Positions 3,916 to 14,385 of a stretch of DNA of 37,657 nt are shown here, in pieces. Position 1 is the first letter of the stretch; every line of letters starts with the position of its first letter. The notes under the pieces were generated by a model. It was not told where the DNA came from and did no database searches. It saw only the letters and a program-made list of their open reading frames with translations. Both the position numbers and the translations under genes were made by a program. This DNA is from a virus: positions 1-37,657 of the IMG/VR virus record IMGVR_UViG_3300042470_000503. The stretch is one strand, 5' to 3'.

Positions 3916-4662
3916 ATGGCAAATATCACCCGCAGTTGGAAGCGATTCTTGGCTGTGGGATGTTCTCACGGTCATCACGCTGACCAACAGCTTCTCAAGC
4001 GTGTATTGGCCTTTAAGGCCCGCTGGAAGCCGCATACGACCCTGCATCTAGGTGATGCTATAGACTTGGCCTGTCTCCGCCAGGGTGCGGCGGGCAGCGC
4101 AGATGAAAGCGCAAACCCGGAAGGCGACCTGCAAGACGGTCTAGCCTTCCTGCACCAGCTCGAACCAAAGCTCTACTTCCTTGGCAACCACGAGGCTAGG
4201 CTCAACACGCTGATGGAATCACCAAAGGCCATTGTAGCCGCATTAGCGGGCCGTGTGATGGGTCAGATCACCGATCAGGCCAGACGGATGCGGTGCGAGG
4301 TGATCGACTATAATTTTCAGAACGGCTGGCGCCAGCTTGGAGACACGCTCTTTGGTCATGGATACATGGTCAATGAGGCGGCAGTACGAGACCATGCTGA
4401 GGCTGTGTGCGGGGGTACAGCTAACAAGGTGGTCATCGCTCACCTGCACAGGGTCATGCAGGCTGAAGGGCGCAATAGGGCGCATCCAACAGGTTACTGT
4501 GTTGGGTGGCTGGGGGACGTCAACCAGCTCGGCTACTGTGCAAACCGCAGGGCGACCACCAGTTGGTCACGCGGCTTCGCATGGGGAGAATGGTGCGATT
4601 CCGAAACTGTTGTGTGGCTTGCCAAAGAGACGCAGGCGCACGACTTTCGTTTGCCTGTATGA
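3916..4662 (+). CDS. Calcineurin-like metallophosphoesterase
   Basis: 248 aa. The motifs of the metallophosphoesterase fold appear in order: GCSHGHHAD (15-23), HLGDAID (44-50), LGNHE (89-93), FGHG (146-149) and IAHLH (174-178). They bind a two-metal centre that hydrolyses phosphate mono- or diesters. In motif I the usual first Asp (DxH) is Cys16 here, which may alter metal binding. Phage copies may act on nucleic acid or nucleotides; the substrate is unknown. The ATG at 3916 removes an upstream extension that would overlap the preceding gene. It overlaps the next gene by 4 bases (ATGA). Confidence 0.8.
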   Translation: MANITRSWKRFLAVGCSHGHHADQQLLKRVLAFKARWKPHTTLHLGDAIDLACLRQGAAGSADESANPEGDLQDGLAFLHQLEPKLYFLGNHEARLNTLMESPKAIVAALAGRVMGQITDQARRMRCEVIDYNFQNGWRQLGDTLFGHGYMVNEAAVRDHAEAVCGGTANKVVIAHLHRVMQAEGRNRAHPTGYCVGWLGDVNQLGYCANRRATTSWSRGFAWGEWCDSETVVWLAKETQAHDFRLPV

Positions 4663-6061: not shown

Positions 6062-7040
6062 GCACTCCTCACTACCCAAGCTCGCTCTGTGCGGGCAGTT
6101 TGAAGGCGCCGCTGGCAACAGCAGTGCAGCCTCACGGGGCACCATGCTTGACGGCGTATTCCGTGATGCCTGGGTCACCGGCGAACTGCCTCGTGACCTG
6201 AGTGACGAAGACGCAGCGGCAATCCAATGGGCACTTGCTCAGTGCATTCTGCTTGGTGGCGGCGCAGACGGGCTCACCACTCAGGAATCCAACTGCCGAA
6301 TTGAGACATCAGGCATTGAACACAAAGGCACAGCAGACGGCGTAGCAGTAAAGGGCCAGTGGCTCATCGACCTAAAGTCTGGTCAGGTCTACGACTACAC
6401 TGGTCAGATGGCGGCGTACGCCCTGGGCCTGATGGAGACTCACTTCGAGCAGGAATGGACGACTCATCTTCTATTCTGCGACCAACAGAAGATGGTGACC
6501 CAGCACTGGACCTATACCAGCGCCAAGGAAACCGTCCAGCGCATCTTGGACAACGTAGGGACTGCTCCCGTTCAAAACGATTACTGCAACTGGTGCGCCA
6601 AGTCGTTGACCTGTCCGGCTCGTGTTGCCAGTAAGGACTCTGCACTGGTCACTGTAGCCGGCTTGGCTCCGACTGTGCAGGACGAAGCCTTCCTATCGCT
6701 TCTTAACGATCCTGACCGGCTTGGCCAGTTCTTGGCTGCTTGCCAGACGCTGGAAGACTTTAGGGACGCAGCTAAGGCTAAGGCTTGCGAGTTGCTCGAG
6801 GCCGGTGAACAGGTGCCCGGCTGGCGCCTCCAGAAGCCTCGTGCGACTGAGTTTGTTTCGGCTGACTACGTTGCCAAGGCAGTCGAGGAAGGGCTGATCG
6901 GCGCAGGCAATGCCATCGCAGCCTACGGCTCACTGTCAGCGAAGAAAGCTGAACAGCTCTGGAGTGTGTCAGGTCACGAGATGCCTGCTTACATAGTGTC
7001 CCGTAAGGTTGGTAAGGCTCCTCTTGTTGCTGCCAAATGA
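6051..7040 (+). CDS. Cas4/RecB-like PD-(D/E)XK nuclease
   Basis: 329 aa. The PD-(D/E)XK core is visible: GTADG with Asp96, then LIDLKSG with Asp107 and Lys109, then GQMAAYALG with Gln119. Cys14 near the N-terminus plus Cys179, Cys182 and Cys188 (YCNWCAKSLTCPAR) reproduce the four-cysteine layout that holds a 4Fe-4S cluster in Cas4, AddB and related exonucleases. A helical C-terminal extension of about 130 residues follows. It probably resects DNA ends to feed the RecT-like annealase encoded downstream. No cas genes or CRISPR array are present. It overlaps the next gene by 4 bases. Confidence 0.78.
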   Translation: MKIRHSSLPKLALCGQFEGAAGNSSAASRGTMLDGVFRDAWVTGELPRDLSDEDAAAIQWALAQCILLGGGADGLTTQESNCRIETSGIEHKGTADGVAVKGQWLIDLKSGQVYDYTGQMAAYALGLMETHFEQEWTTHLLFCDQQKMVTQHWTYTSAKETVQRILDNVGTAPVQNDYCNWCAKSLTCPARVASKDSALVTVAGLAPTVQDEAFLSLLNDPDRLGQFLAACQTLEDFRDAAKAKACELLEAGEQVPGWRLQKPRATEFVSADYVAKAVEEGLIGAGNAIAAYGSLSAKKAEQLWSVSGHEMPAYIVSRKVGKAPLVAAK

Positions 7041-13495: not shown

Positions 13496-13753
13496 TTAGC
13501 GGGTGAAGTTAAGTGCCCAGAGGTTAACGATGACGAGAATGACCAGCGCAGTAGACTCGACCAGGTTTGCGCTCCCGATTAGGGCAAGTAGGTCGATCAT
13601 CAGGAGGGCAGCAGTGGTGACCAGTTTGACTGCTGTCCACTTGCGCGTGTTGGGCTGGATAGCTGAGAAGTCCAGCTTGATGCCGGGTTCAGGGTAGTCG
13701 TCTGTGTTAGATGGAGAAGTGATGTCAGGTTTGGAGTAGCGTGATGTGCTCAT
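13496..13753 (-). CDS. Small two-TM membrane protein
   Basis: 85 aa. About 40 polar N-terminal residues are followed by two hydrophobic segments (VKLVTTAALLMIDLLALIG and ALVILVIVNLWALNF). Function unknown; superinfection exclusion or membrane anchoring are possibilities by position only. It is the first gene of a minus-strand pair served by the promoter at 13779-13807. There is no Shine-Dalgarno; the sequence before the ATG is GGACCCATCCC. Confidence 0.6.
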   Translation of the reverse strand: MSTSRYSKPDITSPSNTDDYPEPGIKLDFSAIQPNTRKWTAVKLVTTAALLMIDLLALIGSANLVESTALVILVIVNLWALNFTR

Positions 13754-13778
13754 GGGATGGGTCCGTTTTCACGGGGCA

Positions 13779-13807
13779 ATTTTAGTTTTGAGAAATGGTT
13801 TTTCCAA
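13779..13807 (-). promoter_or_regulatory. Sigma70-type promoter for the minus-strand pair
   Basis: On the minus strand TTGGAA (13807-13802), 17 bases, then TAAAAT (13784-13779). The expected start near 13772 leaves a leader of about 20 bases to the ATG at 13753. A hairpin CCGATT-TTAGG-AATCGG sits just upstream (13811-13827), where a regulator could bind. Confidence 0.6.
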
Positions 13808-13812
13808 TTTCC

Positions 13813-14105
13813 GATTTTAGGAATCGGCAAATGGAAGCGGGAGGTTTAGGAGAATCTTCATGCGTGTGCAACTACCGAGGATTGCTCGGTAGTTCGTGCG
13901 CACCATAGCGGTGACCGCACCGAAATGATCCAGGCACGAGCCTAGCTCGCAACTGACAAGGATTCCTTGACAGTTGGATCTATTTCGTGACGCCACGGAA
14001 ATGATCCCGGCAGGCCAGCTCCCAGCCGGGATTCGACTGAGCCTCCTTTTCACCGACCAAATTGACTTTTGTAAAATTATTCCAGCGATTTTGGATTTTA
14101 GGAAT
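13813..14105. repeat. Direct repeats GATTTTAGGAAT flanking the hairpin element
   Basis: GATTTTAGGAAT occurs at 13813-13824 and again at 14094-14105, in the same orientation. They bracket the tandem hairpin element. The left copy is part of the CCGATT/AATCGG hairpin next to the minus-strand promoter. They could be protein-binding sites or the ends of an inserted segment. Confidence 0.5.
13870..14012. repeat. Tandem duplicated hairpin element with covariation
   Basis: Two diverged copies. Copy 1: a 25-base hairpin (13870-13894, arms AACTACCGAG/CTCGGTAGTT), a linker, then GTGAC, six bases, GAAATGATCC, one base, GGCA (to 13936). Copy 2: a 25-base hairpin (13951-13975, outer arms AACTG/CAGTT, inner CAAGG/CCTTG), a linker, then the same GTGAC...GAAATGATCC...GGCA (to 14012). 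The hairpins differ by compensatory changes. Further palindromes lie between and after the copies: CGAGC/GCTCG (13938-13950), GGATC...GATCC (13976-14007) and ATCCCGGC...GCCGGGAT (14004-14032). It has no convincing ORF. It may be a structured RNA, replication origin or protein-binding array. Confidence 0.65.
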
Positions 14106-14357
14106 TTGACTACGGAAACAGGCTGTTTTGAGGGGTCACTAGGGTGGCCTAGGGGTGTCTTTAGGGTGCTTTAGCACGCTTGGAAGGGTGCTTTCTAAGG
14201 GCAGGAAGGGCTGTTCTGGGGGTGCTTTGTTTGCTGGCAGGGTCGCCATAGCTGAAAGAGGGGAAAAGGCTTTTAAAGGGGTGTTTTGTACGTTGTGGGC
14301 GCGTATGGGGAAGGGGGGGTGAGAAAGGGGTGGAAAGGGGGCAGTGTAAATGCAAAA
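14106..14357. other. Non-coding G-rich region with GGGTGCTTT iterons
   Basis: No gene is supported here. The plus strand is rich in G runs. GGGTGCTTT occurs at 14164-14172, 14186-14194 and 14220-14228, and CTAGGGTG is followed closely by CTAGGGGTG. The short frames across this stretch have biased, low-complexity products. The repeats could be iterons for an initiator or regulator. Confidence 0.45.
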
Positions 14358-14385
14358 AAGGGACCCCCTTTTCAGGGAGTCCCTT
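14358..14385 (-). terminator. Terminator of the minus-strand gene block
   Basis: Arms AAGGGAC and GTCCCTT with an inner CCC/GGG pair. Read on the minus strand the stem is followed by TTTTTT, as expected for a rho-independent terminator of the block at 14419-16963. Confidence 0.75.

Follow-up and report, generated by a model that had tools for sequence, protein, structure and literature searches.

Two 25-bp hairpins in an intergenic region of a phage genome are probably orphan binding sites for proteins of the RhuM family, carrying two different specificities and recognized as duplex DNA rather than as RNA. A palindrome of the same form lies within rhuM genes, its arms covary with the DNA-reading helix of the encoded protein, and the two phage sites are nearly identical to two of the types found in those genes. 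From these comparisons we infer that RhuM binds and dimerizes at the palindromes. The winged helix-turn-helix of RhuM would bind the 25-bp palindrome as a symmetric pair, with the recognition helix contacting arm bases 5–10, and in rhuM itself the site, placed in wing-strand codons ~15 residues after the helix, changes together with that helix. Pairing between the arms would be preserved by the need of a dimer for a symmetric site, and not by RNA folding. Because no RhuM-type helix was found in the window (the whole 37,657-base virus record that we analyzed), the RhuM protein reading these sites would be encoded outside this phage, by the host, a prophage or a competing phage.

The hairpin region and its features

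The window contains genes for a phage portal protein, terminase, RecT, an exonuclease and a DnaB-like helicase. Its hairpin region is intergenic, extending from 13754 to ~14420 with minus-strand ORFs on both sides (Table 1), and a DNA similarity search against annotated phages returned no relative of it. We considered and rejected a coding reading of 13817–14053 on the minus strand; the frame is lost in L137, and from reading the relatives the stretch was judged non-coding. The initial annotation had described a tandemly duplicated element here, and most of its description was borne out: the layout GTGAC-N6-GAAATGATCC-N-GGCA does occur twice (85% identity, spacing 76), the 25-base hairpins with AACT/AGTT ends are present, the linkers measure 16 and 11 bases, and GATTTTAGGAAT repeats at ~13813 and 14094 bracket the whole.

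The right boundary of the intergenic region is a terminator-like hairpin that has counterpart hairpins in related phages. Between this hairpin and the sites lies a G-rich stretch with irregular repeats of the AGGGGTGTCTTTAGGGTGCTTT type (14106–14350), which is well conserved among relatives and is a candidate replication origin. A module of the form TTTTGAGAAATGG...GATTTTAGGAAT, located at 13754–13830 and again at ~14030–14110, recurs in the same orientation in the window and in relatives, and its minus strand looks like a promoter followed by a leader.

Table 1. Sequence features of the intergenic hairpin region, in window coordinates.
Feature	Position	Strand	Remarks
Promoter-like site, TTGGAA-17-TAAAAT	13779–13807	-	upstream of 85-aa ORF 13496–13753; consensus match only
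Putative orphan RhuM-type palindrome 1, AACTACCGAG-GATTG-CTCGGTAGTT	13870–13894	+	DN-type half-site ACCGAG; 10/10 pairs
Palindrome B copy 1, CATAGCGGTG-ACCG-CACCGAAATG	13904–13927		includes GTGAC core; 8/10 pairs
Direct repeat copy 1 (GTGAC...GGCA)	13911–13936		family D1
Putative orphan RhuM-type palindrome 2, AACTGACAAG-GATTC-CTTGACAGTT	13951–13975	+	QN-type half-site GTCAAG/GACAAG; 9/10 pairs
Palindrome B copy 2, CTATTTCGTG-ACGC-CACGGAAATG	13980–14003		7 Watson-Crick + 1 wobble of 10 pairs
Direct repeat copy 2 (GTGAC...GGCA)	13987–14012		family D1
Terminator-like hairpin	14358–14385	-	12-pair stem then TTTT; for minus-strand genes on right

Both hairpins belong to a widespread family of palindromes

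The two hairpins have the 10-bp arms and 5-nt centre of RhuM-type palindromes and lie 81 bp apart, with differing half-site types. Palindrome 1 scored 39.8 bits with covariance model R1 (E 2e-10) and palindrome 2 had a covariance-model score of 39.5 bits (E 3e-10). Each differs by only 1 nt from sites inside rhuM genes: palindrome 1, of a type present in 27 viral contigs, from those of genes having [ST]xDN[IV][GS]L helices, and palindrome 2, for which an identical 25-mer occurs in L328, from those of genes having [ST]KQN[IV]SL helices. The window half-sites ACCGAG and GTCAAG are thus the ones paired with DN and KQN helices, respectively. In orphan copies the base just outside the 25-mer is G or C on the left in 67 of 75 cases and on the right in 71 of 75, and the window sites have C/C and C/G at these positions. 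Pairs 5 and 8, the stem pairs said to change together between the two hairpins, indeed differ on both sides, but the description passed over pair 6, where C-G gives way to A·A; one of the three differing pairs is therefore broken, and this A·A is the lone mismatch of palindrome 2.

Searches with AACTACCGAGGATTNCTCGGTAGTT found it in 27 viral contigs that differ in content, in intergenic positions, next to apparent tRNA genes and within coding sequence, and a relaxed pattern, AACTNNNNAGGATTNCTNNNNAGTT, matched at least 120 stretches. Among the 104 non-duplicate matches listed, 277 of 416 free positions were paired between the arms, compared with a maximum of 206 in 2000 shuffles of the right arms. 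Stem types ACCG, GTCA, TGTA, GGTA and GACA recurred, as did others, and most copies within genes shared one frame, with proline-rich linkers a frequent location. The window hairpins are two of these existing types, near letter-for-letter copies of each occurring in rhuM genes as well as in unrelated viruses, and ACCGAG and GTCAAG-like sites are also found close together in L221, L242, L261, L263 and L302. RhuM-type orphan palindromes beside or between apparent phage tRNA genes were seen in L219, L239, L245, L264 and L295 (flanks read by eye).

Among Pseudomonadota genomes, 15 of 120 had matches to the covariance model, one to a few each, and the chromosomal matches were mostly inside rhuM genes. 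When we looked for RhuM-type helices near orphan sites, we found them only at the rhuM loci themselves, plus weaker cases in L366 and L375. Among open-licence PMC papers, we found no published description of the palindrome, of the peptides it encodes, or of RhuM together with a hairpin.

The palindrome resides within rhuM genes

The gene family in which the palindrome is at home is rhuM (PF13310), which is listed in PADLOC as candidate defence (PDC-S05 and PDC-S23) and had been proposed as a toxin/defence domain (PMC3710099). The PF13310 profile detected rhuM in 76 of 299 and 39 of 148 sampled genomes of two phyla, or about one quarter. Sixty loci made up a set found by profile only, of which 29 could be parsed by residue pattern and 31 could not. 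In the parsed genes, 267 of 290 pairs formed at one fixed codon offset (shuffle maximum, 183), with 23 of the 29 genes having 9–10 of 10 pairs, even though the 29 genes had 26 different left arms. With rhuM genes found in other ways included, 32 of 47 had all 10 pairs, and no other stretch of these genes exceeded 8/10. Genes with an in-gene 25-bp palindrome include L381, L339, L383 and L398–L509. A further 40 rhuM loci were fetched as a held-out set, and in all 24 that could be parsed (16 could not) the palindrome was at the same offset. The centres of the rhuM palindromes vary widely (GGATT, AAATT, CCGTA, CTATC), and therefore the spacing and the arms matter, not the loop.

The recognition helix and the half-site change together

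The residues that track the half-site are the nine that end just before an HLKNI motif, at the start of the second helix of the winged helix-turn-helix. Similarity between helices correlated with similarity between half-sites (Mantel r 0.65; null maximum, 0.18), with control correlations of 0.12 for the helix-to-site linker, 0.08–0.11 for pre-helix residues and 0.02 for 35 downstream residues; related rhuM genes are not independent of one another, and these control regions of the same proteins were without correlation. Because the linker would have come along if a DNA segment had simply been co-inherited, its lack of correlation disfavours that explanation. Mutual information peaked in order along the helix and the arm, pairing helix position −6 with arm position 6, −5 with 7–8, and −4 and −1 with 9.

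The helix types and the half-sites found with them were [ST]xDN with ACCGAG, KQNxxL with GTCAAG, PQN with TGTAAG, VPN with GTTAAG or ATTAAG, KxTxSE with GTTCGG, VRTxxE with ATCCGG or GTCCGG, VPAxxK with TTTCC, RSxxxK with TGTGCA, and KSTISR with GTTGCA. In the 24 held-out genes, prediction from the nearest known helix gave 5.3 correct bases of the 6 in the half-site, as opposed to 2.5 for random choice, and the misses were partly orderly: a KQNxxK helix went with GTCAAC, as against GTCAAG for KQNxxL.

An AlphaFold2 model of RhuM places the helix at residues 41–53 and the wing strands at 63–72 and 75–85, with the palindrome encoding the first strand. Searching the PDB with this model gave no fold match below E 0.001, and no sequence relative of RhuM was found in the PDB. 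Its neighbours among the predicted viral folds of BFVD include Bro-N and phage repressor/antirepressor proteins, whose DNA-binding domains are thus among the nearest predicted viral folds to the model.

A separate palindrome in the GTGAC core and the origin of the tandem

The GTGAC core falls within a second palindrome, which we call palindrome B. This palindrome is a separate element of the phage family, apart from the 25-bp hairpin, and possibly represents a second family of protein-binding palindromes. Several relatives have it in perfect form, CATATCGGTG-N4-CACCGATATG followed by ATCC, and changes to it in the window (twice), L150, L186 and L203 break pairs without compensation. The claim that pairing rather than sequence is conserved therefore applies to the 25-base hairpin but not to palindrome B and its GTGAC core. 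Outside the relatives, palindrome B was found in six viral contigs (L252–L257), mostly in a longer form, CCATATCGGTG-N4-CACCGATATGG; some copies of CCATATCGGTG-N4-CACCGATATG(G) in these contigs are coding, with the peptide HIGDVTDMV. It was absent from 398 Pseudomonadota genomes when up to one mismatch was allowed. A scan of genomes with GTGAC-N6-GAAATGATCC gave only scattered single matches, apparently due to chance, and was set aside.

Protein searches of viral contigs identified ~10 related phages that share the gene order of the window. The GTGAC/GAAATGATCC unit of the initial annotation does not recur in them with pairing intact: relatives having the core carry one unit each, not two, pairing is lost in palindrome B, and the 25-base hairpin is mostly absent. 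Of the relatives, only L150 and L186 share this hairpin with the window, the same place being empty in the others; it is therefore dispensable, and the description of it as modular was apt. Because the 3′ flank of unit 2 is common to L186 and unit 1 resembles L134/L203, the tandem arrangement seems most easily explained by recombination between two phage lineages. Elsewhere in a related phage, L211, a degenerate RhuM-type palindrome (AGTTGTAAAGGATTCCTTGACTACT) is found at 6593–6617, and L186 has a long low-complexity insert (GTGCGTGCGTG type) in its intergenic region at ~4395–4540.

Alternative explanations for the hairpins

The original interpretation was that two modular units, their stems preserved through compensatory mutation, make up a structured non-coding RNA or else a single-stranded DNA origin. 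The arms do covary across the palindrome family, and the region folds strongly as RNA (z −7.8 versus shuffles), although any row of palindromes would do likewise. We nevertheless regard this interpretation as very unlikely, because the same palindromes occur in many unrelated contexts, coding linkers included, with centres that vary between copies and arms that follow the DNA-reading helix, whereas the 25-base hairpin is absent from most relatives and the changes in palindrome B disrupt pairs. Rfam had no match for the region, either at gathering scores or at E up to 1. Instead of having arisen by tandem duplication and compensatory mutation, the hairpins are two pre-existing, widespread types, and their covariation with the helix points to a DNA site bound by a dimer. 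Still less likely is an attachment site, intrinsic terminator or packaging site, for which the intergenic position of the hairpins would be suitable; copies lie within genes of unrelated phages, no integrase was found among the genes examined, and no terminator (a G+C stem followed by a T run) was predicted at the 25-bp hairpins.

A mobile palindromic element, either self-spreading or kept symmetric by template switching, would explain the patchy presence among relatives, the in-frame copies in proline-rich linkers, the copies by apparent tRNA genes and the copies paired at close range, and likeness to RhuM sites would then arise because rhuM frequently hosts the element. Template-switch correction of imperfect palindromes would also make both arms change together. 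Such an element leaves unexplained why the helix, and not the neighbouring residues, tracks the half-site and why helix positions map to bases in order, and no transposase or target duplication was noticed, short of a systematic search; we consider it improbable as an account of the hairpins. We think it just as improbable that they form the operator of a local regulator for the minus-strand genes starting at 13753. The sites do lie upstream of a promoter-like sequence and adjoin palindrome B, which is kept in the phage family, but the window lacks a RhuM-type helix, relatives that have these genes lack the site, and elsewhere the sites are found in genes or by tRNA genes, not at promoters.

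Comparison with known systems

The window palindromes match, to within 1 nt, those inside DN- and QN-type rhuM genes, and they differ from the RhuM family in that the site is present without the gene. Like REP sequences, which are GTAG/CGTC-tagged palindromes (PMC3733652), RhuM-type palindromes are short and scattered in genomes; unlike them, they number one to a few copies per genome (two in the window, as opposed to the high copy number of REP sequences), have no GTAG/CGTC tag and occur in phage coding regions. The solitary repeats of RNA anti-CRISPRs (PMC10651486) are likewise solitary viral copies of an element from a host defence locus and offer a possible analogy for a decoy, with the difference that a CRISPR repeat acts there as RNA, whereas a duplex DNA site is indicated here.

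Possible roles of the orphan sites

Our first guess, which we hold to be somewhat likelier wrong than right, is that orphan sites titrate RhuM as decoys, because they sit in harmless-looking places, two specificities occur together, and RhuM is listed as candidate defence. The main alternative is that they spread as small mobile palindromes, and recruitment of RhuM to the benefit of the phage is another possibility. A broader and slightly more doubtful proposal is that a helix and its own site in the wing codons evolve as a cassette, and that phages accumulate orphan sites matching several RhuM specificities, which would serve at any position as decoys, either against RhuM-family defence or against superinfection control.

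It is unusual for the reading frame of a gene to include a site that fits the DNA-reading helix of the encoded protein and co-evolves with it. A readable helix-to-base code would give a predicted target for each RhuM protein, which would allow its targets to be catalogued across host, plasmid and phage genomes and then tested. A decoy role, if true, predicts a higher density of orphan sites in phages than in bacterial chromosomes. With orphan sites present in phages, an odd pair of hairpins becomes a question of phage–host conflict that can be tested.
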